DNA from: a virus
IMG/VR virus record: IMGVR_UViG_3300045941_000150
Span: 1-49,411 of that record
DNA length: 49,411 nucleotides
Reading direction: 5' to 3' (one strand)
Shown: in pieces, positions 1 to 49,411 of the stretch
Numbering within the stretch: position 1 is the stretch's first letter
Layout: the number at the start of each line of letters is the position of its first letter
The notes under the pieces: generated by a model
Databases searched by the model: none
Told to the model about the DNA's origin: nothing
What the model saw: only the letters and a program-made list of their open reading frames with translations
Program-made: the position numbers and the translations under genes

Positions 1-240
1 GCCTGGGAAGCCGCCAGGGAAGCCGCCGGGGCAGCCGCCTGGGAAGCCGCCGGGGCAGCCGCCAGGGAAGCCGCCGGGGCAGCCGCCTGGGAAGCCGCCG
101 GGGCAGCCGCCTGGGCAGCCGCCAGGGAAGCCGCCGGGGCAGCCGCCGGGGCAGCCGCCTGGGAAGCCGCCAGGGAAGCCGCCTGGGCAGCCGCCAGGGA
201 AGCCGCCGGGGCAGCCGCCAGGGAAGCCGCCGGGGCAGCA
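1..240 (+). repeat. 12-bp coding tandem repeat array, left part
   Basis: Twenty head-to-tail units of the form GCCGCC-NGG-GMA, where N is T, A or G and M is A or C; the first unit lacks its leading GCC because the window starts there. Only these two bases vary, and both change the amino acid (W/R/G and E/A). GGG units always carry GCA, never GAA. The array ends at about base 240, where the tail changes to GCA CAA. Confidence 0.95.
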
Positions 241-339
241 CAAGCCGCGATCATCAGGCGATACCTCCTACCTGATAGCACTCCTGCATCAGAAAACATC
301 GCAATAACGCTGGAAGATCTTCAGGAGCGTGTGGCGTGA
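1..339 (+). CDS. C-terminal part of Ala-rich repeat protein (continues from window end)
   Basis: The frame is open from base 1 to a TGA at 337-339. Residues from about 1 to 80 are a four-residue repeat (Ala-Ala, then Trp/Arg/Gly, then Glu/Ala), followed by a non-repetitive tail of about 32 residues ending in QERVA. The same repeat in the same frame closes the window at 49160-49411, after an N-terminal domain starting at 48806. The two pieces are therefore most simply the halves of one gene cut by the linear representation of a circular genome. The stop overlaps the next gene's GTG start (GTGA). Function unknown. Long Ala/Arg/Trp repeats after a helical N-domain occur in phage proteins sometimes labelled putative immunity protein, but I cannot confirm that family here. 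Confidence 0.75.
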   Translation, partial: AWEAAREAAGAAAWEAAGAAAREAAGAAAWEAAGAAAWAAAREAAGAAAGAAAWEAAREAAWAAAREAAGAAAREAAGAAQAAIIRRYLLPDSTPASENIAITLEDLQERVA

Positions 340-9666: not shown

Positions 9667-9756
9667 CGCTGGACACCAAGAGGCTCAGGCCGGAAAGGGA
9701 GATTTAGCCCATGTCAACCCAGCTAATACGCACGGAGCCGATTCGCGATAGAATGT

Positions 9757-9777
9757 TGTCCCTTCGAGGAGGGGACA
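9757..9777 (+). promoter_or_regulatory. Hairpin overlapping the integrase ribosome-binding site
   Basis: TGTCCC (9757-9762) can pair with GGGACA (9772-9777) across a nine-base loop that contains GAGGAG. The 3' arm covers the end of the Shine-Dalgarno run (9766-9774) and the A of the ATG at 9777. It could limit integrase translation; regulatory role inferred only. Confidence 0.4.
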
Positions 9778-11000
9778 TGGGACGTCGGCGCGGACAGAGA
9801 AAGGGCTGGCTACGCGAGCAGAGCGGGCAATGGCGGCTCACGTACAGACTCTACGACGTGCTCGGCAGACCGAAGCGCGAGGACGTGTATATCGGGCCGG
9901 CCGAAGGGCCCGGTAAACTCACGGCGAAGCAGGCCGAGCGACGGGCCTGGGACGACTACCTAAGCAAAGCAGACGACATTTCGCGTAAGCCAAAAGCGAC
10001 TATTACGGTCACAGAATTTTGGGATTCGAAGTACTGGCCACAAGCGGAGCTCAGGCTCCGCAAGAGCACGCGCGGGCAGTACTCGTCGCTGTGGGGCCAC
10101 TGGCTCAAGCCGCGGATCGGGAGCACTTCAGTTGCACTCGTGACGGTTGAACACATCGAGCAGACACTCGCCGAGATCGCCAGTGCCGGAAAGTCGCCAG
10201 CAACCGTAAAGCATGCGCGCAAGGTGCTTTCGGCTCTCTTCACCCGGGCAAAGAGGCTCGGATACTTCACGGGAGACAACCCAGCCGGACTCGTAGAATT
10301 GCAGCCTGCGACAAGCGTCAGGAAACCGTATGCGCTCTCTGTGGCGCAAGCGAGGGCGATACTGGCAGGAAAACCTAAAGGCGCCCAGAATGGCTCTCTT
10401 GCCACGCCAAATCGATTCCTGCACATGATTCGCGCGGCGTTGCTGACCGGCATGAATGCGGCCGAACTCTGCGGGCTGCGGTGGTCTCAAGTGAACTTGA
10501 CGGACGCTCCGGCGGGCGACATTCCGGCGAAGTGCATCGGTGTCCGCGAGCACTGGTACCGCGGTGAGGCCGGCGCACTAAAGACCGGCAACCGGTACCG
10601 CAACATCCCGATTTGCGGCGCGCTCGCAAAGCTTCTCGAGGAGATCCGGGCCCGCGGCGTGTTCCTCACGGGCGCAGACCGCGTGTTCTGCTCGCGCAAT
10701 GGGAAGCCGCTAACCGAGAACAATATTCGCCGACGCCATCTTGCGCCGCTTGCCGAATCGCTCGGGCTTCCATATCTCGGCTGGCACATCTTTCGCCACA
10801 CGGTGGCCAGCTGGTGCGCCGAACTCGGGATGCACGAGGTTGACCGACAAGTGCTCCTCGGGCATGCGCCGGCCACGATGACACAGCGCTACACACACGC
10901 TGAGCTTGAGCGGATACGCGGCGTGCTCGATCAGTTGGCGGCGCGGATTGAACCGGCGAAGACTGGTTCGAACGTGGTGGAGATCAGGAGAATTGGTTGA
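9777..11000 (+). CDS. int: Tyrosine recombinase (phage integrase)
   Basis: About 407 residues. The basic N-terminus (MGRRRGQRKGWL) is a likely arm-binding domain, followed by a SAM-like core-binding domain (about 75-160) and the catalytic domain. Catalytic positions seen: Lys about 269, His 337, Arg 340 (HIFRHT), His 363 (LLGHA) and the nucleophile Tyr 372 (TQRYTH). The first catalytic Arg position is Asn 227 (TGMNAAEL). ATG 9777 is preferred for its strong GAGGAGG site and standard start sequence; ATG 9711 is a longer option. It should integrate at the tRNA-Arg segment at 12790-12839. Confidence 0.93.
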   Translation: MGRRRGQRKGWLREQSGQWRLTYRLYDVLGRPKREDVYIGPAEGPGKLTAKQAERRAWDDYLSKADDISRKPKATITVTEFWDSKYWPQAELRLRKSTRGQYSSLWGHWLKPRIGSTSVALVTVEHIEQTLAEIASAGKSPATVKHARKVLSALFTRAKRLGYFTGDNPAGLVELQPATSVRKPYALSVAQARAILAGKPKGAQNGSLATPNRFLHMIRAALLTGMNAAELCGLRWSQVNLTDAPAGDIPAKCIGVREHWYRGEAGALKTGNRYRNIPICGALAKLLEEIRARGVFLTGADRVFCSRNGKPLTENNIRRRHLAPLAESLGLPYLGWHIFRHTVASWCAELGMHEVDRQVLLGHAPATMTQRYTHAELERIRGVLDQLAARIEPAKTGSNVVEIRRIG

Positions 11001-14032: not shown

Positions 14033-14508
14033 CCGTAAGCACTCGACAATTGGCGGCGATGCTCGGGCTAAGCTTAGCCCGTGTCTACACGCTTGGCCGC
14101 CTGGGAAAAATTCAGCCAGAGGCCCCTAATTCCTGGGACGTCGACAAAGTCGCTGCCGCGCTCGGGCGGGATCTAGACAGGTCAATCATACACACGGAGT
14201 CGCCATCTGATGACCATGTTCCCGTATCTCCTCGCCAAGGGAGTCAAGCCTACGAGAGCTGGCGCCTGACAAGGGAGAAGGCAGCGCGCGCAGAACTGGA
14301 GCGGCAGAAGCTCGAGGGCTCGCTGCTCGATGTACGCGAAGTTAGAACTGCCTGGGCTGGAATGATTTCAATCGCTCGCTCAAGACTGTTGCTCGTCGGA
14401 GAGCAGGTCAGCGATACCGTGGCGGCCGAGGCCGATCCCATACGCTGTCGGGAAATCATCACTGGTTCGATACACGACGCCCTTTCATCGCTCTGTGAAT
14501 CGCGCTAA
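14029..14508 (+). CDS. Terminase small subunit
   Basis: 159 residues from the ATG overlapping the previous stop. The N-terminal helix-turn-helix (TRQLAAMLGLSLARVYTLGRLG, about 4-25) would bind the packaging site. A linker and a helical region (YESWRLTREKAARAELERQKLEG ... VREVRTAWAGM) follow, as in lambda Nu1-type subunits, where it mediates oligomerisation and contact with the large subunit. The large subunit follows with a 14-base overlap. Confidence 0.8.
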   Translation: MTVSTRQLAAMLGLSLARVYTLGRLGKIQPEAPNSWDVDKVAAALGRDLDRSIIHTESPSDDHVPVSPRQGSQAYESWRLTREKAARAELERQKLEGSLLDVREVRTAWAGMISIARSRLLLVGEQVSDTVAAEADPIRCREIITGSIHDALSSLCESR

Positions 14509-16429
14509 ACAATTACTCAAGGAATGCTGCCGGCTTTGGGCGCCGCCAGTCCGAGAATCGCTCTCGCAATGGGCAGAAGCGAACTTCCGGCTCAGTTCGG
14601 AGTATTCGGCGTATGAAGGCCCGCTCAGGCTTTACCAGTTCCAGCGCGGCATCCTGGATGCTTACAGCGACATTTACACCCGCGAGCTCGTGGTGATGAG
14701 CGCAACCCAGATGGTGAAGACGCTACTTCTGCAATGCATCATCGCCCACACGATCGCCCGGGATCCGGGCCCGATCCTACTGGCTCAACCTACCGAAACG
14801 GATGCCGAAACGTTCTCAAAGGAACGTCTCGACCCAATGATCCGTGACATGGAATGCCTCAGAAAGCTCATCGCACCGGCGAAAAAGACGAGCAGCGCGA
14901 ATACGGTCCTGCATAAAGTATTCCGCGGTGGCTCGCTATCGCTCATCGGCGCCCAAACGCCTGGCAATTTCGCGCGCCGGTCTATTCGTGTGTTCCTGGC
15001 GGATGAGCGTGACAAATGGAAGCGGAATGTTGGCAGGGAAGGCGACGGCTATTCCCTTGGGGTGAAGCGCACGGCCACATTTCGGAGCCGGGCGAAACTG
15101 GTTCAGGTATGCTCTCCTACAATCGAGGGCGCCTCGCAGATAGCAGAAGCCTACCAGGGCAGCGATCAGCGTAAATTTTGGGTGCCATGCCCGTCCTGTG
15201 GCCATTCCCAGGTTCTTCGCTGGTCACAAGTAGTCTGGGAAGCCGCAGCTCCGCGCGAAACGGCCAGGTACAAGTGCGAAAACGAGGATTGTGGCGCACC
15301 CTGGAACGATTTCGAGCGCTGGGGCGCGTGTAGCCGCGGAGAATGGAGAGCCGATCGCCCTTTTCAGGGTATTGCTGGATTCTGGATCTCTGAACTTGCC
15401 AGTCCGTGGAAGACACTGGGCGACATGGTTGCGGATTTCCTGTCGAAGAAAGACGATCCTGCGCTTCTGCAGACCTTCGTCAACACTTCGCTTGCTGAAA
15501 CATGGAAAGAACGCGGCGATGCTCCGGATTACGAGAAGTTGATGGCGCGGAGAGAGCCGGATTACCGTCTCGGTCAGGTTCCGGCGCCTGTTCTGTTCCT
15601 CACGGCCGGCGTCGACGTCCAGAAGACCTGGCTCGAGGGTTATGTCTGGGGCTGGGGCCGCGGTAAAGAACGCTGGATTATCGACCATTGGCGGATCGAA
15701 CACAACCCGTATGATCAGGCGGCGTGGGATGCACTGACAACCAGGCTGAATTCTACCTATAGGCATTCGTCCGGAGCCGATCTCGCCATCATGCGGATGG
15801 GAGTCGATACAGGATATGCCACTCAGGAAGTTTACCGGTGGGCCAGGGAACAGGGCGGCGGCAGAGTCATAGCGACGGACGGACGGCCTTCAGGTGCGGC
15901 GTTATTGGGGCTTCCGACGCAGGTCGACGTCACAATAGCCGGACGAAAAATCAAGCATGGCTCGAAGCTCTGGCCGGTCAATGTTTCGATGGGAAAGTCG
16001 GAACTGTACGGTCTGCTCGGCAAAGAGCGACCGGCAGCCGGCGAACCGTATCCGCCAGGCTGGGTCCATTTCCCCTCGGATCTCCAGGAAGAGACCTTCA
16101 GGCAATTAACAGCCGAAGTTCTGGTTACCAGGATCGTCAAAGGCTACCGGAAAACGGAATGGGTCAAGATCCGTGAGCGCAATGAGGCTCTCGACTGCGC
16201 GATCATCAACCGTGCCTGTGCCGCGCACATCGGTATTGACAGATTCGGCGAGCGCCGATGGCATGAGTTCGAAACAGCTCTCAGGTATGCCGATATTAAA
16301 GAACTCGAGCCGGAACCGGGAATAAAACCCGCGGTTGAAATCGCTCAGCGGTCCCCTGAGATTGGCGTGGTGCGCGAACGCACCCAAAGTTGGCTGGGCG
16401 GCCGCGGCGAGAACTGGTTTTCACGATGA
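14495..16429 (+). CDS. Terminase large subunit, lambda gpA family
   Basis: 644 residues from GTG. The ATPase part shows a variant Walker A (SATQMVKT, about 70-77), the following LLAQPTETDAETFS and a Walker B-like IRVFLADERDKW (about 166-177). A zinc site is visible (CPSCGHSQ, CENEDCG, about 231-265). The nuclease domain starts around AGVDVQKTWLEGYVWG (about 370) and includes GVDTGY and DCAIINRACA. The enzyme cuts concatemeric DNA and pumps it into proheads. Walker A is degenerate, as in lambda gpA itself. Confidence 0.92.
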   Translation: MNRAKQLLKECCRLWAPPVRESLSQWAEANFRLSSEYSAYEGPLRLYQFQRGILDAYSDIYTRELVVMSATQMVKTLLLQCIIAHTIARDPGPILLAQPTETDAETFSKERLDPMIRDMECLRKLIAPAKKTSSANTVLHKVFRGGSLSLIGAQTPGNFARRSIRVFLADERDKWKRNVGREGDGYSLGVKRTATFRSRAKLVQVCSPTIEGASQIAEAYQGSDQRKFWVPCPSCGHSQVLRWSQVVWEAAAPRETARYKCENEDCGAPWNDFERWGACSRGEWRADRPFQGIAGFWISELASPWKTLGDMVADFLSKKDDPALLQTFVNTSLAETWKERGDAPDYEKLMARREPDYRLGQVPAPVLFLTAGVDVQKTWLEGYVWGWGRGKERWIIDHWRIEHNPYDQAAWDALTTRLNSTYRHSSGADLAIMRMGVDTGYATQEVYRWAREQGGGRVIATDGRPSGAALLGLPTQVDVTIAGRKIKHGSKLWPVNVSMGKSELYGLLGKERPAAGEPYPPGWVHFPSDLQEETFRQLTAEVLVTRIVKGYRKTEWVKIRERNEALDCAIINRACAAHIGIDRFGERRWHEFETALRYADIKELEPEPGIKPAVEIAQRSPEIGVVRERTQSWLGGRGENWFSR

Positions 16430-34386: not shown

Positions 34387-37300
34387 AGCTACTCATACTA
34401 ATTGCTGCTGCGGCCACGTCGCTGGCTGCGCAGACCTGCCCCACTCAGGCTGTCACCCTCTCACAAGTGTCAATCCCCATCGGTTCTAATTCTGTAGTCA
34501 AGGTTCCGCCTGGCTGGTGGGGCGGAACGTTCACATCATCGAACACGACAGTTGCGCCTCTACACGCGCATACCCCCACGCTGTGGAACATGGCGACCGG
34601 CGTTACGGCTGGAGTAACGGCCATTACCGGGACTGGTTGGACAGCGCCGAACGATGCCACGGGCTGCTCGCTGTCTGCCGCTCAGCTAACGGTGACTGCG
34701 CTTTCGGCAACCGCAAAAGAGGTACTCGTTTTTGACTGGAATAAAGGTATCGCTGCCGAATCCAACAGGTACACGGAAGGACCTCTCGGCAACACCAACG
34801 CCAGCCAAAACAAAGTAGTCCGCTACAACGTAGATCGAATAAACCCTATTGATTTTGCGAACGGCGGTATTTACTATATCCGTGTGAAGATGGGGGCAAT
34901 GTCCACAAATGACATATTCACGTGGCAGATCAATCACTGGAAAGGGAACCTGGGACAGGAGGGAGAAATTTACAGCCACATTAACACCACAGATCTGAAT
35001 TTCAACTGGACTGGTACTCCGATCACAAGAACGTTTACACTTCCGATCGACGATCTGGTATCGCTTCTCGGCAGACCAGTCTGGGATTGGTCAACAAGTA
35101 TGCCCATGACAATTATGGGATTTCTCAGCAACGATTCTGTCACCGCAGATAAGAAGCTTGACCCATCGGCGATCCCGCTCGACATGCGAATGACTATTGT
35201 TAATGTCGGCGCAGGCGGTACGTTCTCTGGTTGGCCTTACTGGATTGACCATGGCCTCGGAGAGCGTACTTACGACAAAGATTTTCCAACACCATTAACA
35301 ATCGATTCTCCCAGCGCAGGCGCGACGATATCCGGCCCGGTGGACATCAACGTCACAGCCAAGGACAACGTTGGCGTTACCAAAGTAGAAATATCAATCG
35401 ATTCCGGGCCAGGCTCTCTCAAGAAAGTGGATACGCTAGCTCCTTACAGTTGGCGATGGAATCCGGCAGGGTACGCAAACGGCACGCACCGAATAACGGT
35501 TAAAGCCTACGATATGGCTGCGCACACGAACAGCACTTTTATAGATGTTCAAGTAGGAACTGACGATCCCAACCCGCCGACTTATCCCAACCCTCCAAAC
35601 CCGAGCTATTACGCCGAGCTGAACGCGGACCTTCCGTATACGCCGGGAGTCTGCAACATTACAGCTACCAATTCTGCGGAACTGACAGCGGCTCTTAACT
35701 CTGTCTCGTGCGGGCAAACGATCTGCGTTATTGCTGGCACTACTTATTCTGCCGGACAATTTGTATTCAACAAAGACTGTGGCAGGAATTATGTCACGCT
35801 GCGGCCATCAAACCTGAGCGAGACCACCCTGCCAGCTAAGACGCGTGTCACTCCTAAGGACGTTGCCAAGCTCGCCAAGATCTCCAAGCCGAATGCAGGC
35901 GCCGGACCCATTATCGTAAGGCCTAATTCCTCCGGGTTTAGGATGATCGGGCTTGAGGTAACTTCGGAAGCTGGTAACAATAACTTTATCGTTTTGGGCT
36001 CTAATAACAGCAAGCCAGAGAACGGGCCGCTGCAAACAACCCCTGCATCCGTCCCGCACCATCTCATCGTGGATAGATCCTATATCCACTGCCGCGACAA
36101 AGCCACGAAATGCAGTGCCGGTATCCGCGTGGACGCCAACTTCGTCTCTATTGTCAATAGCTACATCGACGAAATTCACGACGCCAGCGGAGACGACCAG
36201 GCCATTCTCGTCATCAACGGCTTGGGTCCGTTTCTTATTCGGAACAACTTCCTGCACTCTGCCGGCGAGAACCTTATGTACGGCGGCGGTGATCCAGCTA
36301 TCCGTCACGTACCTAGCGATTCCTGGCTCGAAGGTAATTACTTCTGGAAAGACCCGAGCCGTAAATTCGGCGACCCACTCTACAAGGTCAAGAATCTTTT
36401 CGAACTCAAGACCGGGCGCCGGATGAAAATCATGGGTAACGTCTTTGAGAACGATTGGAGCGGCGTATCCAGCCAGTATTATGCTATTGTCTGGAAATCC
36501 TCGAACCAGAACTACTGTGGGGCAAATAATGAAATCGACACGGTTGGCAAGAACGGCTATTACCAGCAGACCTCTGATATAGAATTTGCCTATAACAGAA
36601 TCAGTAATATCCCGCAGGGGTTCGTGTTCCAGCGCCGCGCTGTTTGCAGCATAGAAGTAGGCACCGACAGGCTATGGGTCCACGATAACCTCATTACAGG
36701 GCTTGGCAGCGGACATGCAAAAGACAATAATCCACAGTTGGTTTTCTGGGCATACCCACAACAAATAAACCACCAGGGTGAAGTGCTGTATCCCCGCGAC
36801 GTTATTTTTATGCACAACACCGTGGGCAGCATCGCGGGCGGATTTGGAATAGATTCCTATCAATATTCGCATCTTGAAACACGAGGTAACTACACTCGTA
36901 ATTTCTACATACATTCGAACATTTACCCAGGAAAGTGGTTTGCTGCCCAAGATGCCGGTGGAGGGACGAATAATAATGAGGTTGTCATCAAAGACAGGCA
37001 CAGGCCAACTTTGGTAGTGCAGCATAACCTGAATATTGCTTCAAGCACAGTATTCGGATCTAACCCGAATTACTCTCGCACGAGTTACAGCGGATTACTC
37101 GATTCTACCTTCAGGCTCGTGAACCCAAGCCAGTACCCTGGCTTCGACGGACGCCCTGTAGGCGCTAACATTACCGCGCTTGAGAACTGCATTGCGGGCG
37201 CGACCTCATCCTGGGTAGGGAATTGCGCTGGCGGTCCGCCTGGCACATCCGTGAGACTGGAAGCGAACGGTTCGCCCGGTCCTATCACGGTTGCTCCAGG

Positions 37301-38090
37301 AGCGTCTGTCAAGATGGAATGGTTCGTTACGGGCGCGACGGGCTGTACCGCAGATGCCTCTACGGCTGCCGCGCGAGCCCTATGGAACGGAGCCAAATCC
37401 ACCAGCGGTGGCAGCCAGGTAATCAATCCTACCTCCAGTGCGAGCTACACGCTTGAATGTGTTGGACCAAGTGCCAAAGTGCAATCGACAGTAACAGTTA
37501 ATACCTCCACGGTGGGAATCTCCGCTGAACTCAAAGCCAACGGCTCGACAGGCACAATTACAATCGCGCCAGGCGCGGCGGTACTCATGGCGTGGGTTAT
37601 CAGCGGGGCGACCGGCTGCACTGGTACAGCATCGACTCCGGATGCTACTGCTATTTGGGCTGGCGCAAAGGCACCGAGCGGCGGATCTCAGACAATCAAC
37701 CCGAAATCCGACGCATCTTACACAATCGACTGCACCAACTCCTCCACCGGAAAGACAGCATCGTCAACCGTCGAGATCAGAATACAGAGCATCAACCTCT
37801 CTGCGAGGCTGGAGGCTAACGGCTCTGTGAATCCGATCACCGTCGTAGCCTTGACTCCTGTAAAGCTGGAGTGGTTTGTTCAGGGTGCGACTGCCTGTGA
37901 GGCAAGCGCATCGACACCAGCAGGTACAGCTCTTTGGAATGGGGCGAAGTCGGCGACTGGCGGCAGTCAGACGATCAACCCGGCGTCAACCGCAACGTAC
38001 TTTATTCGGTGCTCCAACGCTGATGGAAAGACGGTCGATGCTCCGGCGACCGTGAATATTGCGGGAGTGTGCGCCTGGCCGCCGTTCTAA
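34383..38090 (+). CDS. Secreted beta-helix protein with Ig-like domain and three C-terminal repeats (putative depolymerase/adhesin)
   Basis: 1235 residues from ATG overlapping the previous stop. Signal peptide (LLILIAAAATSLAAQ), a beta domain, a lectin-like region (about 115-290), a Big_7 Ig-like domain (SPSAGATISGPVDINVTAKD, about 305-395), then a long right-handed beta-helix (about 440-890) with repeated Asn/His-rich turns. From about residue 955 three units of about 92 residues follow (LEANGSPGPITVAPGASVKM, LKANGSTGTITIAPG, LEANGSVNPITV). It looks like a polysaccharide-binding or -degrading tailspike/adhesin. No catalytic residues could be confirmed. Confidence 0.75.
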   Translation: MKLLILIAAAATSLAAQTCPTQAVTLSQVSIPIGSNSVVKVPPGWWGGTFTSSNTTVAPLHAHTPTLWNMATGVTAGVTAITGTGWTAPNDATGCSLSAAQLTVTALSATAKEVLVFDWNKGIAAESNRYTEGPLGNTNASQNKVVRYNVDRINPIDFANGGIYYIRVKMGAMSTNDIFTWQINHWKGNLGQEGEIYSHINTTDLNFNWTGTPITRTFTLPIDDLVSLLGRPVWDWSTSMPMTIMGFLSNDSVTADKKLDPSAIPLDMRMTIVNVGAGGTFSGWPYWIDHGLGERTYDKDFPTPLTIDSPSAGATISGPVDINVTAKDNVGVTKVEISIDSGPGSLKKVDTLAPYSWRWNPAGYANGTHRITVKAYDMAAHTNSTFIDVQVGTDDPNPPTYPNPPNPSYYAELNADLPYTPGVCNITATNSAELTAALNSVSCGQTICVIAGTTYSAGQFVFNKDCGRNYVTLRPSNLSETTLPAKTRVTPKDVAKLAKISKPNAGAGPIIVRPNSSGFRMIGLEVTSEAGNNNFIVLGSNNSKPENGPLQTTPASVPHHLIVDRSYIHCRDKATKCSAGIRVDANFVSIVNSYIDEIHDASGDDQAILVINGLGPFLIRNNFLHSAGENLMYGGGDPAIRHVPSDSWLEGNYFWKDPSRKFGDPLYKVKNLFELKTGRRMKIMGNVFENDWSGVSSQYYAIVWKSSNQNYCGANNEIDTVGKNGYYQQTSDIEFAYNRISNIPQGFVFQRRAVCSIEVGTDRLWVHDNLITGLGSGHAKDNNPQLVFWAYPQQINHQGEVLYPRDVIFMHNTVGSIAGGFGIDSYQYSHLETRGNYTRNFYIHSNIYPGKWFAAQDAGGGTNNNEVVIKDRHRPTLVVQHNLNIASSTVFGSNPNYSRTSYSGLLDSTFRLVNPSQYPGFDGRPVGANITALENCIAGATSSWVGNCAGGPPGTSVRLEANGSPGPITVAPGASVKMEWFVTGATGCTADASTAAARALWNGAKSTSGGSQVINPTSSASYTLECVGPSAKVQSTVTVNTSTVGISAELKANGSTGTITIAPGAAVLMAWVISGATGCTGTASTPDATAIWAGAKAPSGGSQTINPKSDASYTIDCTNSSTGKTASSTVEIRIQSINLSARLEANGSVNPITVVALTPVKLEWFVQGATACEASASTPAGTALWNGAKSATGGSQTINPASTATYFIRCSNADGKTVDAPATVNIAGVCAWPPF

Positions 38091-39393: not shown

Positions 39394-39407
39394 TTCCCCT
39401 CATTCTA

Positions 39408-42400
39408 ATGCCTGATCAGATAGGCTTCATCGACGTTCCTGAAGTCGCGGTCGAGGGCACGTTTCCGCTCGTCAGCGACTTCGGCTATGGCTACACGCTC
39501 GAGCCGGAAATCGTCTCCCACCAGTTCTTTTCGGCAAACGCCAAAATCACGCAGCGCTTCTATCTGGGCGATGGACGCAAACGGCATTCGTTTCGCCGCA
39601 GCCGGCTGTTCCAGCCGGAATGGGAGGCGTTGCGGGACTTCTGGGAAGACCGCACGGGACCATACCAGCCGTTCACTTACAATGCTCCGAGCGACGATGG
39701 GCAGAGCACGCGCGAGGTAGTCGTTGCGTTCGAGGCCGCTCCGCTTACGCTCGACCATTTGACGAATGCCGTTTCCACCGGCATCACGTTCGTCGAGATT
39801 CCCGATCCGCTACTCGCGCCGGCGTACTTCGTTACATCGACCTCGGGCAGGTTCCCATCGAATACGCTGCAGGAAGCTCTTACCTCGCAGGTCCAAGAAG
39901 TCATCCCACTACTGAAGATCAACGTGCGCGAGCCGGGTTACCCAAATCTTCTGCTCAGCGATCGCCGGGTGCAGATTGCCGGGGAACAGTATCTGCCGCG
40001 GCTGCTTCGGTGGGACGGCATCGCGCAGGGGATGAACGGAGAGGCCGACGAGGCCACGTTCGTGCTCGGGAATGCGGATCGCGTGATGCGCGATGTTTCA
40101 TTCCAGACGGAGCTGAAATACGCGCGCGTCGATTTCTCGATTTATCATGTCGGGACCGGCATCCTGCTCAATCTTTGGACAGGCCGTATCATGAGTGCGA
40201 CCTACGACGAAGGACCGGAGTTCACGATCCGGGCGAGCGATTTCCTCTATGAGCTTTCGCTCGTTTACCCGTCGCGCGTGATCAGCCATCAGTGCTGGAA
40301 GAATTTCAACGACGACATCACCTGTCCTTATGCGTTCTTCGGGACTCCTGGCTTCACAGAATGTCCGCGCGCGTTCGCGGATTGCGAAGAACGCGGGATG
40401 TCAAGGTTCTTCGGCGGCATCCAAATCAACCGGCAACAGGTAAAAATCAAAGACAATTCCACGGGCACGTGGGGATTCGGGCGCCGGATGCTCTCACCTA
40501 TTTCGATCGTCAACGAAGGCGCGCAGGGGCAGGTGCTTCAGGAGATTTACACGGATCGCGAGATGCCGGTCAACTGCCTCGTTGTCGCCGGACGGGATGA
40601 GAGCGAGTATTTCACGGCATTGGGAATCGTCGGCGCCGGGCCGATTACCGCGTACTCGCGCGATTTCATGGCGCACACGCTGGACGGACAATCGGCGCAT
40701 GGGCCACCACCGCGGGGGCTCCGCCGGTCTCACGGTCACGACCCAGCGCTTAATAACGACCCCGACGGTGACTCTCACCAGTTCGGCCTCGGCCAGGTCA
40801 ACCCGCTCGATCCGAATTCGTCCATCTACCCGGAGGCCACACAAGCCGCGGGCGTGGCATTCGTCGAGATCCGGCGGTCTGACGAAAAGGACATTCAGCT
40901 CACTCAAATCACAGAACACCAGATGCAGGTCTGGGTCGAGCGGGGCATGTCCGGCTTCGTATGGGAAGCGCCGGGCGTGCGGGTTACCGATGCCTGGCTA
41001 ACCAATCCTGTCTGGGTAAAGGCCAATGCCATTCTCCGCGCGACTGGCTTGCACCTGGGAACAGCCGAACAACAGGAAGAACTGATTGATATTCCGTCAG
41101 CGATTGCTTGCGCCGATATCTGCAATCTGGAAGTTAACCGGTCTGATGCCGTCCCAGAACTCAACGGCACAGAGAAGCAGTTCACATTCCGCGGCGTCAT
41201 TGCAGACCAGCGAGCGCTCCGAGATTGGCTCAACGATATCGACAGGTGCCATCTCGGCTTCTATGTACAGTCGGGAGGCAAGATAAAATTCGGCATCCGT
41301 GTGAACAGTTCCGCGGTGGCCGCTTTCACGGCGGGCAACGTTATCGCGCAGACTGTCCGGATTCAGTACCGATCTCCGGAGTTCAATTCCGTCACTGTGA
41401 CCTTCGGCGACGCGGATTACGAATGGCAGCCGCGGGCCTACACGATCGACGATTTTACCAATCAGCGGCAAATCGGAACCGTGTATCCGCAGAAGCTGAA
41501 TTCGGCCATGAACCTGGTCGGGGTCTCCACCATCGCACAGGCGGGACGTATAGCGATCACGAGACTGCGGGAGGAGCTAGGCGGCATCAACGCTGCCGAG
41601 TGGCGCAAATCCTGCACCGTTAGCCTAACCACGACCATTCTAGGACTCGACTGCGAGGTGGGCCAGGTCGTATCACTCACACACGAGCATGCGCCGGGAG
41701 GCCGGGTAGAGTTCCGCGTGGAACGCTGGACGCTCAACAGCGACTGGTCCCTTACCCTCGAGGGCCGCTCGACGACGGATTCCATGTACGACCTGCTCGT
41801 TGGGCCGAAGCCGGCGGATGTGATGCCGTCGCCCGTTCCGGCCGAGCGTCACTGGGACACGCTGCCACCGCAGCCATGGTTCCCATCTTTCGAGCAGCCG
41901 AATGCGCAGGACCCGCTCTACGATGAGACGGACTGGTCATTTGGCCTGACCCAGGTTTACGAGACGGCGGCCGACGGTACGGCGCTTGCGAAACTGGTCA
42001 TCGCCGGCCAGTACCCGATCCTGAAAACGATCCCGGGCGACGGGCCGCGCATTGGGTTCTTTGCCACATCGGCCGACGAGGGCAGCATCGCGTCTGGCAA
42101 ATACGTTGTGGTTGCGCTCACGGCGGTTGACAGCGCCGGCAATGAGACCCAATCGTCACAGCCAGCGGCCATTCCGGTCGACGTCGGCACGGATACGAAC
42201 AAAATCACGCTGGGCGCGATTCAATGGCCGGGAGGCACGACGGGTTACCGGCTCTATGCGGGCGAAGATCACAACAGGCTTTCGCTCCAGGCTGAAAATT
42301 TCGAGGAACAGCCATTCACACTCGACATCACCGGGTATCCGAACATCCGCACAAAGGGACTACCGCGGCCGGACCTCGACTCTCTGCTGGTGCGCGTGAA

Positions 42401-43115
42401 AGTTTCCGAGCACGCTGGCGTGGTGGGCGTGGACATCACCGAGGTGATAACCGGCGGTCTCCGTGTCGCCGATATCGGATGGATCGATGACGAATGGATA
42501 GGGCGTGTCGTCTCTGTGATCACGGACCGGTCAGATGGTTCGGCGCAACTCTGGCACTTTCTCGTCGTCGGCAATAACCTGGACACGCTGCATTGCTTCC
42601 CGGATCCACAGGCTGCGGGAGTAGAGGCGCTCGACACCCTTATTATCAGGACTCGGGCAACCTACTTTTCTGAGAACACTATCGGCGACGCAAAATTCAG
42701 GAACTCGCAATATCCAAACGGCGCCAATCCGCACGAGGAAACAGGGCGCATCGTGCGGATCATTGCAGGCACCGGAGCCGGGCAGGAACGCCGCATTGCT
42801 GACAATGACGACACAGTTATGCTCCTGGATAGTGACTGGGGCACGATTCCGGACCAAACATCTATATTCGTTATCGAACGCGCTGCCTGGGAGTATGCCT
42901 CATCAGTCGGGCGGCTCGCGAATGAAATCATTGATGGCCGAATCACATTCTCTGTGCCGATTGACAACTTCCTTTTAAAAACTGTTGTCGTCGAAGTGGT
43001 CGCCGTTACACGAGACGGCCGGCAGCCGGCACGTCGGTACAATCCGTGGCGTGAGATCTACGTATATGGCGGCCGCGGGAGCCTTGGCGACAATCAAATG
43101 CAGATTGAATACTGA
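39408..43115 (+). CDS. Tail hub protein combining gpM-, gpL- and gpJ-like parts
   Basis: 1235 residues. Residues about 1-120 resemble a distal tail protein (RFYLGDGRKRHSFRRSRL). A middle domain (about 160-325) contains four Cys spaced as HQCWK, TCPY, ECPRAF, DCEERG, typical of the gpL/DUF2163 metal or Fe-S site. The long remainder includes the hub (VWVERGMSGFVWEAPGV ... FYVQSGGKIKFGIRV) and an Fn3-like part (GGTTGYRLYAGEDHNR, about 945). It would form the tail tip and anchor fibres. The start has no visible ribosome-binding site. Confidence 0.85.
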   Translation: MPDQIGFIDVPEVAVEGTFPLVSDFGYGYTLEPEIVSHQFFSANAKITQRFYLGDGRKRHSFRRSRLFQPEWEALRDFWEDRTGPYQPFTYNAPSDDGQSTREVVVAFEAAPLTLDHLTNAVSTGITFVEIPDPLLAPAYFVTSTSGRFPSNTLQEALTSQVQEVIPLLKINVREPGYPNLLLSDRRVQIAGEQYLPRLLRWDGIAQGMNGEADEATFVLGNADRVMRDVSFQTELKYARVDFSIYHVGTGILLNLWTGRIMSATYDEGPEFTIRASDFLYELSLVYPSRVISHQCWKNFNDDITCPYAFFGTPGFTECPRAFADCEERGMSRFFGGIQINRQQVKIKDNSTGTWGFGRRMLSPISIVNEGAQGQVLQEIYTDREMPVNCLVVAGRDESEYFTALGIVGAGPITAYSRDFMAHTLDGQSAHGPPPRGLRRSHGHDPALNNDPDGDSHQFGLGQVNPLDPNSSIYPEATQAAGVAFVEIRRSDEKDIQLTQITEHQMQVWVERGMSGFVWEAPGVRVTDAWLTNPVWVKANAILRATGLHLGTAEQQEELIDIPSAIACADICNLEVNRSDAVPELNGTEKQFTFRGVIADQRALRDWLNDIDRCHLGFYVQSGGKIKFGIRVNSSAVAAFTAGNVIAQTVRIQYRSPEFNSVTVTFGDADYEWQPRAYTIDDFTNQRQIGTVYPQKLNSAMNLVGVSTIAQAGRIAITRLREELGGINAAEWRKSCTVSLTTTILGLDCEVGQVVSLTHEHAPGGRVEFRVERWTLNSDWSLTLEGRSTTDSMYDLLVGPKPADVMPSPVPAERHWDTLPPQPWFPSFEQPNAQDPLYDETDWSFGLTQVYETAADGTALAKLVIAGQYPILKTIPGDGPRIGFFATSADEGSIASGKYVVVALTAVDSAGNETQSSQPAAIPVDVGTDTNKITLGAIQWPGGTTGYRLYAGEDHNRLSLQAENFEEQPFTLDITGYPNIRTKGLPRPDLDSLLVRVKVSEHAGVVGVDITEVITGGLRVADIGWIDDEWIGRVVSVITDRSDGSAQLWHFLVVGNNLDTLHCFPDPQAAGVEALDTLIIRTRATYFSENTIGDAKFRNSQYPNGANPHEETGRIVRIIAGTGAGQERRIADNDDTVMLLDSDWGTIPDQTSIFVIERAAWEYASSVGRLANEIIDGRITFSVPIDNFLLKTVVVEVVAVTRDGRQPARRYNPWREIYVYGGRGSLGDNQMQIEY

Positions 43116-43125
43116 GTACTGACCA

Positions 43126-46100
43126 ATGTTTTATCCGAATTCAATTACCAGACGACTCCCTACTGACCATGACTTCATGGCAGGGATTAACCGGAAGTTT
43201 GGGGAAATTCCGAGCGTGAATGATTTCGACCGCGGTGATGGGATAGCGGCTGTCGGCGACTGTAAATTCGAGGTTTTTCTTTCCACTGCGGCAGGATCAA
43301 CAACTGTCAGCATTGATTACGGACCAGGTACAGGGACAATCTCCTCATCGGGGACTTTGGTTAATGGTTCTGGCACGATATTCTTACGTGAGGCCAGTAC
43401 AGAGCGAGCACTTGTTGTCGGCGGTGAGAGTCGCGTTATTGTCGGAGTTATCAATGATTCCACGCTGGTGCTCGGGTCGCCATTCCCGTTCCCGCTAGCA
43501 GACGAAGCATACAGCATCTCGCCTACAGTGTTCAAGCCAGGCGACGGCGGAAAAATCATCGGAATATTCGGGGCTGGGTCTTCCGGCACTATTGTTCCCA
43601 TTATTACGATGCCACAAACGGCCGAGGCATCTATCTCTAATGAGTGGCAGTGGCTGAATATCTACGGCACTCTAAACATTGCCGTGATGGATACACTGGG
43701 AGCGCTCAGCGCGCGCTTCACGGTAACCTGCCGGGCCGGTAACATTGAGTGGGAATTGTACGGGGCAAATTCACCTGATTTCGCGGCCGAGACCTTGGTC
43801 TACTCATCAACAGTAACCATTGTCGATGGCGAAAAGGGTGGCCGCGACATTTATACTGAAGCAACCACCCCACCATTCCGCTACTACAGAAGCAGATACA
43901 GGGGCGCTGTTGCCGGCGTGCGCGCTGAGGGATACGGCTGCATGGCCTGTTACGGCTACCTGCACCACACCACAATTGCCTCGGTCACGTCCGCGATTCG
44001 TGCAGAAATGGCGGCGCCGGCAGCCATTACCATTGCTCACGCTCAATCCTATTGGGGGTGGCACGAGGACAAGGCCATAACCAACGGACTCCAGGCTCTC
44101 AAATCTGTAGTCAGAGGCAGCGATAGGGGTGGAGCTTTATTAATACCAGGAGCGTATCTAACCTCCCAAACCATCAAAGTGCCTAATAAAGTAAAGTTGG
44201 TTGGCGATGGCCTGGTGTCTACTATTGTTCCTGATCCTGGAGTGTTTGCTTCCGTGTCTATAGATGGTGGCCCGTACGGTATCCCGGTAACAGGCCCGAT
44301 TGTTACTCAGATCGGAGAGGACGACGACTCTTTTGGAGCCTACAGCACAAGAATCGAGAGCGTGCATATTTACTGCAATGAGATGCCAGATTCTATCGCA
44401 GTATATAGTCAGTGGTGTCAGGAAAGCAGCGGATTATCACATGTCCATGTTACTCGTTTTGGGCAGAAAGGAATTTTCTTTAACGGGTTTGGTTGTCAGA
44501 ACTGGTCCATGCAGGATATCGGTGCGAATGCTGCCGGTAATTCGCTCGGTGATGATGATGCTGTTGCTATTCACCTTTATAGGAGTGTAAGCCGGAATTC
44601 TATCACTGGAGCCAGTATCAGCGGTAGCTCGGCTATATCCGGATATGGGGATGCGGTAAGGCTGGAGGAATCCACAGTTACCATAGACTATTTACACACC
44701 GAATCCTCCTACAATGCCTTAAAAGCAACTGATTCTCTAATTGTACTTGGGACACACATCACCGGTCCTGGAGTGATTCGTAGCAATGTTTTCTCACCTG
44801 GGAATTCAATACGGTTATGGCGACCAGGCGATCACGTTTACATTGAGGAATACGACAAGAACTATGCCGGCTTTGACCAGGGGATGCTCTGTTATGGTTC
44901 TGAGGTCCATCGCTTTATCGGGCGCTCGGGACAGGGCGGGGATGTTATCAATTTCCAGAATCAAGGCCGGACAGTAAGAGTAAACCGTCAGGGCTATCTT
45001 GAGCTGGATGGTGGAGGTCGAAGAGATAGCCCGAATATTATTCTTATCGGAAGCGGCCCGAATCTTGGTGGTGGCAACCAGGGCGGTTGGATGACTGTAA
45101 ATGCCCAGTTTGGAGCCAATGGAAAATTTATACAAGTCAGCGATAAACACACTTGCTCAGCATCGTCAGCAACCGACAAACTAACACTTACCTATGACTG
45201 GCCAACAGACGGCCGGCTGAGAACCGATTACTTAGGGGAGCACTGGAACTGGACTCTGGCAGACGGCTATATATTCTACGCTGTTGGAACGGATGGAGCG
45301 GACGAAGACCTGCCAACCGGGCTGGTATCAGGTACCCCTTATTATGTTGTTGGCTCTGATCCCGCAACTAAAACCTTCTCATTATCCCTGACAGAAGCCG
45401 GAAGCCCAATAGACCTCACTACCGACAGCGCCGAAATGTATGTTACCAAGTGGCCGTATGCGGGATATTACCGCATGGGTACGGACTATTTCGAGTTCAG
45501 GCGCGGACGAGCAAACCTAACAACAGACATCGGGGATATTACTAACCCAGGCGAAATGATTCTTCAGGCTCGGGCTGATTACGGCTGCCATTTCTCGCGC
45601 TTGTTCTTCTACGCCGGTGATGGGTACGAGCAGCGAATTGGCAATCCATTCGGTGTAAATCGCGCCAGATTGAGCCATGGAGCATCCAGCCAATCAGAAC
45701 TCAGAATCGAGCGGAGCACCGACAGCGAGGCAACGTGGACAGAAGGCTACGTCTTCCACCTGGAGCTAGGTCACCTTATCATTCCCAGTGCGTTGTTTGT
45801 TGGCGGCCAACGGTTCGCTGGTGACTACGCTGGTAACGGATCGCCGAATGGCGCCGTAACGGCATTCAAAGGCTCAACCTACCGTGACGGCACGAATGGC
45901 AATTTCTACGTCAAACTAACCGGCTCTGGAGCTACGAATACCGGTTGGGTCAGCGTTTCGGACGTGTTCTGGACAGCGATCGACGCGCACAATATCAACA
46001 CTGTCTACCGGGTCCACATCGAAGACACTACAAATTCCCGGCCACTTGGAATAACGATCGTAGACACTTCTCACATCGACCAGGCAGCAACACCATTAAT

Positions 46101-46539
46101 CACCGCCAACGCTTTTGTTGTTGATTACCGCGGCCGTGTCAGGGCTCGTTCAATGGCTGTGGATGCCACTCCATCTACGACCGATGGTTATCTCCAGGTT
46201 AACGCCTTTCTCGGAATTGGGTCTGGTGCAACATCTCCTACTGGCAGCGAACAATTGCGAAACAGCGGCGCGAGCAGGCTGGAAGGCGCCGTCGCGCTAC
46301 CCGGGCTTAGCTCGGCAAGCCGGGCGCTGGTGGCCAACGCCAGCAAAGAAATCGAGGCGTCGTCAGTTACAGCGACCGAGCTCGGCTATTTGTCCGGCGT
46401 GACATCCGCCCTTCAGACCCAAATTGCTAACCTTCAATCGCAAATCACATCTTTGAGCAGTCTTTACAGCTCTCTTGCATCAGCGTACAATTCCCACACT
46501 CATCCACCGGCTACCGATGGGCCGGACCCGACTGTATAA
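43126..46539 (+). CDS. Tail spike/fibre with pectate-lyase-like beta-helix
   Basis: 1137 residues. N-terminal beta domain (about 1-290), then ALKSVVRGSDRGGALLIPGA and TIKVPNKVKLVGDGLVSTIV (about 325-370), the standard opening of phage pectate-lyase-superfamily beta-helices, running to about 650. The C-terminus (SALQTQIANLQSQITSLSS, about 1095-1115) is a coiled coil suited to trimerisation. Likely the receptor-binding or depolymerising spike; no signal peptide, unlike the fibre block before the hub. Codon use appears more AT-rich than its neighbours. Confidence 0.82.
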   Translation: MFYPNSITRRLPTDHDFMAGINRKFGEIPSVNDFDRGDGIAAVGDCKFEVFLSTAAGSTTVSIDYGPGTGTISSSGTLVNGSGTIFLREASTERALVVGGESRVIVGVINDSTLVLGSPFPFPLADEAYSISPTVFKPGDGGKIIGIFGAGSSGTIVPIITMPQTAEASISNEWQWLNIYGTLNIAVMDTLGALSARFTVTCRAGNIEWELYGANSPDFAAETLVYSSTVTIVDGEKGGRDIYTEATTPPFRYYRSRYRGAVAGVRAEGYGCMACYGYLHHTTIASVTSAIRAEMAAPAAITIAHAQSYWGWHEDKAITNGLQALKSVVRGSDRGGALLIPGAYLTSQTIKVPNKVKLVGDGLVSTIVPDPGVFASVSIDGGPYGIPVTGPIVTQIGEDDDSFGAYSTRIESVHIYCNEMPDSIAVYSQWCQESSGLSHVHVTRFGQKGIFFNGFGCQNWSMQDIGANAAGNSLGDDDAVAIHLYRSVSRNSITGASISGSSAISGYGDAVRLEESTVTIDYLHTESSYNALKATDSLIVLGTHITGPGVIRSNVFSPGNSIRLWRPGDHVYIEEYDKNYAGFDQGMLCYGSEVHRFIGRSGQGGDVINFQNQGRTVRVNRQGYLELDGGGRRDSPNIILIGSGPNLGGGNQGGWMTVNAQFGANGKFIQVSDKHTCSASSATDKLTLTYDWPTDGRLRTDYLGEHWNWTLADGYIFYAVGTDGADEDLPTGLVSGTPYYVVGSDPATKTFSLSLTEAGSPIDLTTDSAEMYVTKWPYAGYYRMGTDYFEFRRGRANLTTDIGDITNPGEMILQARADYGCHFSRLFFYAGDGYEQRIGNPFGVNRARLSHGASSQSELRIERSTDSEATWTEGYVFHLELGHLIIPSALFVGGQRFAGDYAGNGSPNGAVTAFKGSTYRDGTNGNFYVKLTGSGATNTGWVSVSDVFWTAIDAHNINTVYRVHIEDTTNSRPLGITIVDTSHIDQAATPLITANAFVVDYRGRVRARSMAVDATPSTTDGYLQVNAFLGIGSGATSPTGSEQLRNSGASRLEGAVALPGLSSASRALVANASKEIEASSVTATELGYLSGVTSALQTQIANLQSQITSLSSLYSSLASAYNSHTHPPATDGPDPTV

Positions 46540-46582
46540 TGGTAAGCGCAACTGCTTTCAACCTTCCTTGAAATAGGGAGGA

Positions 46583-47224
46583 ATGTTGAAATTGAAGATC
46601 GGAATCCTGCTGGCGGCCACCGTCAGCACATGCCTGGCAACACGAATCGACCTACCCTTTGCCGGGAAGCTCCAGGACATCGGACGCATCGAGCAGCGGA
46701 TTACACCGCTGGACCTGGCCGGCGTCCGCGTGCGAGTCCATTTCGGCTCGATCGACGTGGCCTGCTTTTGGGGCGGCATCGTGGCCGGCGCCTGCAGCGA
46801 GTGGTTCACCGCGAAAATGGGCACGAACGCGCCGAACTGGAATATGTTCCAGATTCAGAACACGTCTGGCCGCGCGCTTACTCGAGTTGAGTTCGACTTG
46901 CTCACTATCCGCAACATCCGCAGACAGAAAGAGCAGATGTTCGGGCATCTCGCTATCGACCTGGCCGGTGGCCGCGGCACATGGGGCTCCGGCGCCGGGC
47001 ATGACATCGACGGCGCGCGCATCCTCGGCTACACGCTGACGCGGCAATTATCAGAGGACCTGTATGGCGGCGTGGACCTTCGGACGAACCTCTCGGCCGG
47101 ACAGACGCTGCGGTTTCGGCTTGACGCGGATAAGCTCGTCGCTTCGCCCGAGCCTGCCAGCATGCTGCTTGTCGGAGGCGGCCTGGTCGGTTTGGCCTGG
47201 TGGAGGCGACGGCGGGCGTCGTGA
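46583..47224 (+). CDS. PEP-CTERM exosortase substrate protein
   Basis: 213 residues. N-terminal Sec signal (KIGILLAATVSTCLA), beta-rich body, and a C-terminal tail with SPEPAS (189-191), a hydrophobic run (MLLVGGGLVGLAWW) and RRRR. This tripartite tail is the PEP-CTERM sorting signal cut and handled by exosortase, which the phage does not encode. The start is uncertain: GGGAGG is only a few bases from ATG 46583, so TTG 46586 or 46592 may be used. A lysogen surface modification is the likeliest role. Confidence 0.82.
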   Translation: MLKLKIGILLAATVSTCLATRIDLPFAGKLQDIGRIEQRITPLDLAGVRVRVHFGSIDVACFWGGIVAGACSEWFTAKMGTNAPNWNMFQIQNTSGRALTRVEFDLLTIRNIRRQKEQMFGHLAIDLAGGRGTWGSGAGHDIDGARILGYTLTRQLSEDLYGGVDLRTNLSAGQTLRFRLDADKLVASPEPASMLLVGGGLVGLAWWRRRRAS

Positions 47225-47239
47225 GAGAATTGGCCAGAG

Positions 47240-47428
47240 ATGAGAATCTTCTGGTGGCAAGCCGGGCTCCACATGGAACCGGAAAATCAGGAAGACTTGG
47301 ATATGTTGAAATACCTGATGAGCAATACTACGTTAGGAAGATCCGAGGAACCCGCTACGCTTGTTCCCGGTGAGCAAATTGCGGAAGGCTATATCCCCAG
47401 AAAGCCTGGAAACAAACAGCCGGCCTGA
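47240..47428 (+). CDS. Possible small hypothetical protein
   Basis: 62 residues. Sequence LVPGEQIAEGYIPRKPG looks protein-like, but its 3' third overlaps the convergent minus-strand gene by 96 bases and its ribosome site is weak. One of the two overlapping frames may be wrong; the minus one is preferred. Confidence 0.35.
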   Translation: MRIFWWQAGLHMEPENQEDLDMLKYLMSNTTLGRSEEPATLVPGEQIAEGYIPRKPGNKQPA

Positions 47429-47608
47429 ACTTCCAATGTAGGGCGCAAGGGATTCGCGGACTGAATCCGCGTTGCCTTCCCTGGTCAGAACCCACACCGA
47501 TTTCATTACCTCGAGGGCTCCCATTGATCGCAGCGAGGCCGTCAAGCTCAGTTGGTCCGGCGGCTCCGTCAGGTCATAGGCGATGAGGAAAGAGGCCATG
47601 CAGTTCAT
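47333..47608 (-). CDS. Cas2/SinR-like small protein
   Basis: 91 residues starting at the ATG that overlaps the upstream stop (ATGA, minus). SFLIAYDL, the segment GALEVMKSVWVLTREGN, VRESLAPYI and the final FVSRLSGDIAFRNLL show the beta-alpha-beta ferredoxin-like pattern of the Cas2/SinR/VapD-type superfamily, with an Asp in the first strand. Members include nucleases and regulators. No CRISPR array or other cas genes are present, so adaptation is unlikely; a toxin or regulator role is possible. Confidence 0.5.
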   Translation of the reverse strand: MNCMASFLIAYDLTEPPDQLSLTASLRSMGALEVMKSVWVLTREGNADSVRESLAPYIGSSGRLFVSRLSGDIAFRNLLTGNKRSGFLGSS

Positions 47609-47802
47609 GGAGCCAGTTTGGGCCCGGTCGAGAATAAGAGAAACACCATGAGCCCGGCCGTCCAGAGCCAGGTGAGAACGGCGCAAACACGCATAAAATT
47701 ACGGCTGCCGCTGGAATCGAACTGATCCGGCGCGCGGCAGAGAATATCGATACACCGCAGCAGGATGTATCCGCCGATCATGAAGCCGATGATTTGGAGC
47801 AT
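47605..47802 (-). CDS. Small membrane protein
   Basis: 65 residues. Two hydrophobic segments (IIGFMIGGYILLRCIDIL and FMRVCAVLTWLWTAGLMVFLLF) flank a short polar loop. ATGA overlaps on both sides tie it to the flanking minus-strand genes. An inner membrane role; function unknown. Confidence 0.65.
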   Translation of the reverse strand: MLQIIGFMIGGYILLRCIDILCRAPDQFDSSGSRNFMRVCAVLTWLWTAGLMVFLLFSTGPKLAP

Positions 47803-48470: not shown

Positions 48471-48809
48471 ATGCCCACCAATTCTGCCCCAGCTCCGAGG
48501 AAGCCGCCCGCGTCAGCAGCACAACCCGCTGAAAAAATGGTGACTGTTTGCGCGAAGGTCCGAGCAATGGCGGTCGGCCATCTAGAGCGGCTGCTGTTCA
48601 CTGGCGAGCCCGCTCAGGACTTCAGCGAACAGGTCGCGCGGATACTACGGATTCCAGCGTTGGAGGCGGAGCGGATTTGCAACGAGCACCTACAGATCCT
48701 CGCCCGGCAACACAAGAACCTCCGCAACGGCGTGCGGTGGGCGCTTAACGAGGCGGAGCGGCTCGGGGAGCAGATGCTGCAGGAGTTCGACGAGGAGCGC
48801 GTGGCGTGA
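48471..48809 (+). CDS. Hypothetical protein
   Basis: 112 residues. An Ala/Pro-rich N-terminus (about 1-22) then a helical body (MAVGHLERLLFTGEPAQDFS, EQVARILRIPALEAERICNE). The stop overlaps the Ala-rich repeat gene's GTG start (GTGA). No family recognised. Confidence 0.55.
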   Translation: MPTNSAPAPRKPPASAAQPAEKMVTVCAKVRAMAVGHLERLLFTGEPAQDFSEQVARILRIPALEAERICNEHLQILARQHKNLRNGVRWALNEAERLGEQMLQEFDEERVA

Positions 48810-49411
48810 ACATCCTTGGCGTAGAGGTTCAGCCGATCCTGCTCACGACAAGCCTGTATCGGTTGCGCAAGTATGGCGCTTGCAGCGCGCGATACGCCCA
48901 CCTGCGGAACAAGCTCGGGAGTGAATATTGGGACAAGACTCCAATTAATCTGCTGACGATTCTTACCCACAACGGCGTGGAAGACGCGCTATGGGCGCTC
49001 TGTGCTGTTGAGCAGGATTGTGAGCAAATCGCGCGGCTGATGGCTGCGGATTTTGCTGAGTCCGTGCTGCATTTCTACGAGGCGAAGTATCCGAATGATA
49101 ACCGCCCACGGCTAGCTATCGCGGCAACGCGTGCTTTCGCGGTGGGCAAAACAGATGCAGCCGCCAGGGCAGCCGCCAGGGAAGCCGCCGGGGCAGCCGC
49201 CTGGGCAGCCGCCTGGGCAGCCGCCAGGGAAGCCGCCGGGGCAGCCGCCGGGGCAGCCGCCTGGGAAGCCGCCAGGGAAGCCGCCGGGGCAGCCGCCTGG
49301 GAAGCCGCCGGGGCAGCCGCCAGGGAAGCCGCCGGGGCAGCCGCCTGGGAAGCCGCCAGGGCAGCCGCCTGGGCAGCCGCCAGGGAAGCCGCCGGGGCAG
49401 CCGCCGGGGCA
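48806..49411 (+). CDS. Ala-rich repeat protein, N-terminal part
   Basis: From GTG 48806 (GTGA overlap), about 118 residues form a helical domain (SLYRLRKYGACSARYAHLRN, IARLMAADFAESVLHFYEAKYP, RLAIAATRAFAVGKTDA) followed by the AA-[W/R/G]-[E/A] repeat, 21 units to the window end. The gene continues at window base 1 and ends at 339. The helix (DRPRLAIAATRAF) leading into an Ala/Arg/Trp repeat is a known phage pattern of unknown function; the immunity-protein label used in databases is not verified here. Confidence 0.75.
   Translation, partial: MNILGVEVQPILLTTSLYRLRKYGACSARYAHLRNKLGSEYWDKTPINLLTILTHNGVEDALWALCAVEQDCEQIARLMAADFAESVLHFYEAKYPNDNRPRLAIAATRAFAVGKTDAAARAAAREAAGAAAWAAAWAAAREAAGAAAGAAAWEAAREAAGAAAWEAAGAAAREAAGAAAWEAARAAAWAAAREAAGAAAGA
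49160..49411 (+). repeat. 12-bp coding tandem repeat array, right part
   Basis: 21 units of GCCGCC-NGG-GMA with the same two variable bases as the left part. Bases 49259-49411 match bases 1-153 except A at 49358 versus G at 100. Unit order also shows a 13-unit (156-bp) higher-order repeat. Confidence 0.95.

Follow-up and report, generated by a model that had tools for sequence, protein, structure and literature searches.

A temperate siphovirus that probably infects Acidobacteriota carries, directly behind its tail fibre genes, an accessory gene of the moron type whose product, P0001, is probably (with a probability of about two in three) carried to the cell surface by the exosortase of the host, where it would alter that surface. 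The window, i.e. the whole stretch of DNA that was analysed, is a virus record of 49,411 bp (Table 1). The protein ends in a PEP-CTERM tail. Its gene follows a tail fibre gene in a phage genome that closes on itself and encodes no exosortase, it is absent from the relatives of the phage, and exosortases are present in the family of the probable host. Counted against the reading are the atypical body of the protein, its moderately hydrophobic stretch at residues 54–73, its want of homologs, a promoter that is a match to the consensus only and the lack of a direct host link.

The route of P0001 can be envisaged in this way: the N-terminal signal would take the protein into the Sec pathway and be cleaved, the C-terminal PEP-CTERM helix would hold it in the inner membrane, and the host exosortase would recognise it, cut it at the PEP motif and deliver it either to the cell surface or to the layer of exopolysaccharide. 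Once in place, it would alter the surface of an infected cell or a lysogen, most likely with the benefit that other phages adsorb or enter less, or that the lysogen adheres and binds matrix differently. The model proposed for PEP-CTERM proteins comprises a signal peptide, retention in the inner membrane by the tail and exosortase-dependent delivery outside (PMC1569441, PMC12188702). A single gene of this kind can alter an envelope, as over-expression of a PEP-CTERM protein moves polysaccharide from the free to the cell-bound state (PMC9850573), and superinfection exclusion is a frequent effect of prophage surface changes (PMC11436027).

Table 1. Features of the window relevant to the PEP-CTERM gene
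Feature	Coordinates	Strand	Basis
Left-end remainder of the 314-codon Imm5-like ORF, by which the map closes	1..339	+	
48/12-bp tandem repeat, left copy, sharing 99 identical bp with the right copy	1..239		
Integrase (temperate phage)	9711..11000	+	PHROG 1
Terminase large subunit, used for placing phage and host	14495..16429	+	Relatives
J-like central tail fibre	39402..43115	+	PHROG 31; relatives
Putative tail-fibre gene	43126..46539	+	Lies behind J; weak match to a structural PHROG
Promoter-like site TTTACA-17-TACAAT, in the terminal part of the tail-fibre gene	46463..46491	+	Consensus match only
Shine-Dalgarno-like GGGAGG	46576..46581	+	Sequence
Gene for phage PEP-CTERM protein P0001, 213 aa	46583..47224	+	Profile matches, tail HMM, codon usage
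Signal-peptide-like N-terminus, residues 1-19	46583..46639	+	Hydropathy
Orphan putative mature body, residues 20-186, basic, S/T/N-poor	46640..47140	+	No relatives; composition
PEP-CTERM tail, residues 188-213	47144..47221	+	PF07589, TIGR02595, host-tail HMM
Tail, PEP	47147..47155	+	
Tail, hydrophobic segment	47162..47203	+	
Tail, RRRR	47204..47215	+	
First part of the 314-codon ORF (Imm5-like, phrog_18326), runs off the right end	48806..49411	+	
48/12-bp tandem repeat, right copy, where the contig breaks	49157..49411		

The ORF starts and stops exactly where the initial annotation had placed it, and the SPEPAS motif, hydrophobic run and four Arg that this annotation took for the exosortase layout (residues 188–213: S-PEPAS-MLLVGGGLVGLAWW-RRRR-AS; C-terminal sequence PEPASMLLVGGGLVGLAWWRRRRAS) are recognised as such by curated profiles. 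PF07589 from Pfam matches residues 189–210 with 28.6 bits (cut-off 20.7, E 1.4e-6) and TIGR02595 from NCBIfam scores 20.8 bits (cut-off 16), so that PEP motif, hydrophobic helix and basic cluster are found together above the curated cut-offs. A tail model was also trained on 23 sequences from the PEP-CTERM genes of two Acidobacteriota genomes, the window being left out; a few non-tail sequences were included in this set and should only dilute the model. It gives 34.6 bits to P0001 and 7.7 bits to the runner-up among the 533 ORFs of the window, while the reversed window reaches 7.8 bits and the top of 40 triplet shuffles 15.5 bits. PEP-CTERM tails are located at the extreme C-terminus, usually with fewer than 10 residues behind them (PMC1569441), and only two residues lie beyond the final Arg of P0001. 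Judged by sequence, the C-terminus of P0001 is thus a genuine PEP-CTERM tail, indistinguishable from those of the hosts. Codon usage is phage-like in its frame over nearly the whole gene and flat only in the last interval scored, which overruns the stop. Just 1 nt separates GGAGG (46577–46581) from the annotated start (ATG 46583); the TTG at 46586 may be the real start, which leaves the argument unaffected.

By hydropathy and charge only, the N-terminus (MLKLKIGILLAATVSTCLA) is signal-peptide-like, and residues 54–73, between this segment and the tail, are moderately hydrophobic. The body is atypical. PEP-CTERM bodies generally have few basic residues and are rich in S, T and N (Haft et al. 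2006, PMC1569441), as in seven Acidobacteriota proteins (mean K+R 2.5%, S+T+N 27.8%) and in the other phage PEP-CTERM bodies among the matches listed (averages of 2.5% and 26.2%), whereas that of P0001 has 11.9% K+R and 14.3% S+T+N, with a pI of 9.2. Its composition runs opposite to this bias, which is a tendency and not strictly defining. No homolog of the body was found in viral contigs, phage records or genome contigs, and the 396 Acidobacteriota genomes searched gave only weak matches (best E 8e-4) in ORFs without PEP tails. Searches with P0001 gave no significant match in PHROGs and, in family searches, no similarity to any named exclusion protein. A structure-based reading was dropped, the AlphaFold2 model being unusable (pLDDT 30). 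The initial annotation had tied this surface protein to exopolysaccharide; the tail on which it relied is real, but the link itself is weakened and can only be held loosely, because the body is basic, S/T/N-poor, orphan and without a usable model. It may be speculated that a basic surface protein binds acidic polysaccharide.

The PEP-CTERM gene lies on the same strand as the putative tail-fibre gene, 43 bp behind its end, and no + strand terminator was recognised, including between the two. Other genes of the window include one upstream of J (34353–38090) whose 1245-aa product contains a bacterial Ig domain (Big_7) and has no PHROG match, one for a short, perhaps truncated C5 DNA methylase-like protein of 212 aa (674–1312) and, at 47336–47686 (-), one for a small protein that matches PHROG 1090, a family with no assigned function, and is Cas2/SinR-like by eye only. 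The arrangement around the PEP-CTERM gene would also suit expression late in infection with the tail operon, in which case the exported protein would loosen or coat the matrix, or mask receptors against re-adsorption of the progeny, at lysis and release and would not serve the lysogen. Comparable placements in other viral contigs point the same way: in L180, a PEP-CTERM gene is found about 100 bp behind large tail-module-like genes, and those of L162, L184, L224, L282, L351 and L372 are near capsid, protease, connector or portal genes. However, late neighbours are also the usual sites of morons that are expressed in the lysogen, of which lambda lom, beside the late genes after J, is an example, and sorting to the surface may take too long for a protein needed late. 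Action at this late stage is considered the less likely of the two readings, and the gene may be expressed at either time.

The phage is related to elements of Acidobacteriota. Among named genomes, the terminases closest to its own come from MAGs of Acidobacteriales (49%) and Ca. Sulfopaludibacter (41%), and the nearest prophage, in the Acidobacteriota genome G293, shares 65% identity in the portal, 47% in the capsid and 40% in J. In the family of Ca. Sulfopaludibacter (Solibacteraceae in the NCBI taxonomy), 31 of 150 genomes match the right-hand 19 kb of the window at the DNA level, nearly all of these matches being inside J, and the PEP-CTERM gene has no DNA match in any of the 150. Related J genes are common in this family, to which one of the two genomes used for the tail model (G002) also belongs, e.g. 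in G509, G531, G462 and G576, and they point to a large, little-described prophage group. The host is thus probably a Solibacteraceae-like Acidobacteriota of soil; neither an identical prophage nor a spacer links the exact phage of the window to a host.

As the initial annotation had stated, the phage record contains no exosortase (PF09721), and the proposed dependence on the host agrees at the family level with what was found in candidate hosts: at a threshold of E <= 1e-20, 137 of the 150 genomes from the probable host family encode PF09721, among them 26 of the 31 that match in J. Among 12 terminase-bearing genomes, the eight that have an exosortase are the eight that have PEP-CTERM genes. 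Terminase-bearing genomes have exosortases more often (7/11) than the phylum as a whole (144/396, with a laxer threshold), but this enrichment is no more than suggestive; the count within the family is the stronger result.

The gene is an addition that the relatives of the phage lack. No PEP-CTERM tail was found in the stretches fetched from 55 viral contigs with a related J (27 of which had at least 5 kb beyond J), in 20 J-bearing prophage regions of the host family (some of them short), in the G293 prophage or in 17 virus records reached through the terminase, three of which are partial copies of the window phage. The gene is thus an extra at a place where these relatives have none, which is one of the marks of a moron.

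The initial annotation had also proposed a search for the same tail in related phages. It was not found in the stretches read from the relatives defined by J, as just described, but PEP-CTERM genes occur in other viral contigs: two pattern scans of IMG/VR returned at least about 240 stretches, from which at least 21 other viral contigs carrying such genes, several of them with two in tandem, were kept after filtering. Among the matches listed, nine of ten tested phage genes pass the PF07589 cut-off, the tenth being short of it by 0.2 bits, and all 21 viral records with PEP-CTERM genes lack an exosortase. At a distance of a few kilobases or less, at least 14 of these contigs have a gene of phage type (for capsid, protease, portal, connector, terminase, tape measure, tail fibre, DNA polymerase or exonuclease). 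Some bodies are common to several contigs (L209/L227/L270/L224/L372/L282; L278/L302; L162/L268); the first six form one body family, with 43–61% identity to L227 over the full alignment, and this family is predicted to be all-beta, with signal and tail helices, and has a partial, sub-threshold likeness to the models of floc PepA and EDSAP-1. Of the tandem PEP-CTERM genes of L332 (4595–5474), which adjoin a head maturation protease and whose bodies are 70% identical, the one tested encodes a member of the Npun_F0296 exosortase-dependent family (147 bits). The structure predicted for relatives in the phage family designated A, which is not a structure of P0001, is all-beta with signal and tail helices (pLDDT 74). 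A fold search with it gives generic jelly rolls, carbohydrate-binding modules included, whose TM-scores (query length) of about 0.2–0.35 are too low for a function to be assigned. Whole queries of families A and B gave no match in cultured phages; a tail-only tblastn against these phages also gave none and is uninformative, the query being masked by the low-complexity filter. When 34 proteins of the window phage were compared with the stretches of those contigs, no likeness was found except for the PEP-CTERM protein itself, whose matches in L180, L372, L224 and L353 centre on its C-terminal part. Since the carrier phages are unlike the window phage in their other proteins, the tail has probably been gained more than once.

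These data bear on whether the gene might be neutral cargo, i.e. a host PEP-CTERM gene captured by recombination, whose product is sorted and has no function for the phage. Its presence as a single copy missing from all relatives read, and its GC content of 63% (56% for the phage), would agree with such an origin. Against it, the body has no convincing homolog in the 396 Acidobacteriota genomes and the gene no DNA match in the 150 of the host family, its codon usage fits the phage, and PEP-CTERM genes recur in unrelated phages with some bodies shared between contigs. Neutral cargo is therefore improbable.

It is more improbable still that the tail serves as a mere membrane anchor of a periplasmic protein of the inner membrane (blocking entry or acting in lysis) and resembles PEP-CTERM fortuitously. 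The basic, atypical body and the fact that no lysis gene was recognised elsewhere in the window could be cited in its favour, but PEP motif, spacing, helix and Arg cluster together score more than twice the bits of the top shuffle, and two curated cut-offs are passed.

The PEP-CTERM gene is located between the tail module and genes matching PHROGs 1090 and 18326. The 314-codon ORF reads from 48806 over the end of the record to 339, through a repeat that both ends share; the 49-kb map therefore closes, with phage genes on both sides of the PEP-CTERM gene. As the 12-bp unit keeps other frames open too inside the repeat, this argument rests on the shared repeat and on the fact that the reading frame goes on into unique sequence, where it meets a stop. 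The gene that spans the ends is Ala-rich, and the contig probably broke within its repeat. Three other metagenome records hold fragments 99.99–100% identical to the window phage over 12–19 kb; they span only 4.5–26.4 kb of the window and are thus no test of the PEP-CTERM gene. From this map, the gene lies inside the phage, with no host flank. An artefact of assembly or boundary, with bacterial DNA standing beside a prophage, could be suspected from the G293 prophage, which stops a few kilobases past its tail fibre, but is rejected as highly improbable given one ORF across both ends and downstream genes that match PHROGs.

Taken together, the interpretation first given to this gene is partly supported, and host-dependent delivery of P0001 to the surface, which it would change in the infected or lysogenic cell, is the preferred reading. 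In the literature on PEP-CTERM proteins and phages or prophages, as far as it was covered, phage-encoded substrates are apparently unreported; within that coverage, the presence of this known sorting signal in phage proteins is real and its probable use by phages seems to be undescribed, the function assigned to it being a prediction. A wider proposal, to which slightly less than even odds are given, is that phages of exosortase-positive bacteria (Acidobacteriota and, by tail types, others) recurrently encode PEP-CTERM proteins and in this way turn the exosortase of the host into a dedicated route of export, through which they remodel the envelopes of infected or lysogenic cells. If this is true, the exosortase surface pathway, which is poorly understood, plays a part in lysogenic conversion and in the conflict between phage and host, in Acidobacteriota as in other exosortase bearers. 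The phage substrates, small and apart from polysaccharide loci, would also be convenient probes of how exosortases handle their cargo.

P0001 resembles the known substrates of the PEP-CTERM/exosortase (EpsH, Xrt) systems defined by TIGR02595 and PF07589 in the layout and position of its tail, its signal-like N-terminus, its body without homologs and the exosortases of its probable host family. It differs from them in being encoded by a phage, away from any exosortase/EPS locus, and in its basic, S/T/N-poor body. In lambda, lom, which encodes an outer-membrane protein, follows J. The gene of P0001 is likewise an accessory surface-protein gene right after the tail tip or fibre genes of a temperate siphovirus, but Lom has no homology to P0001, whose export would rely on exosortase. 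Floc-associated PepA (NF033554; PMC9850573) also has a PEP-CTERM tail and illustrates that a single protein can change the binding of polysaccharide to cells; only the tail of P0001 matches its model, with 22.9 of 80 bits, far below the family cut-off. The superinfection-exclusion lipoproteins of the Ltp type, of which Ltp of phage TP-J34 is the precedent (PMC3952083), are phage-encoded, surface-exposed (as P0001 would be) and dependent on an anchoring pathway of the host. They have a lipobox anchor, Gram-positive hosts and a known activity, whereas P0001 has a PEP-CTERM tail, a Gram-negative-type host and a predicted role; if the wider proposal is true, PEP-CTERM proteins of phages would be the Gram-negative-type counterpart of phage surface lipoproteins.
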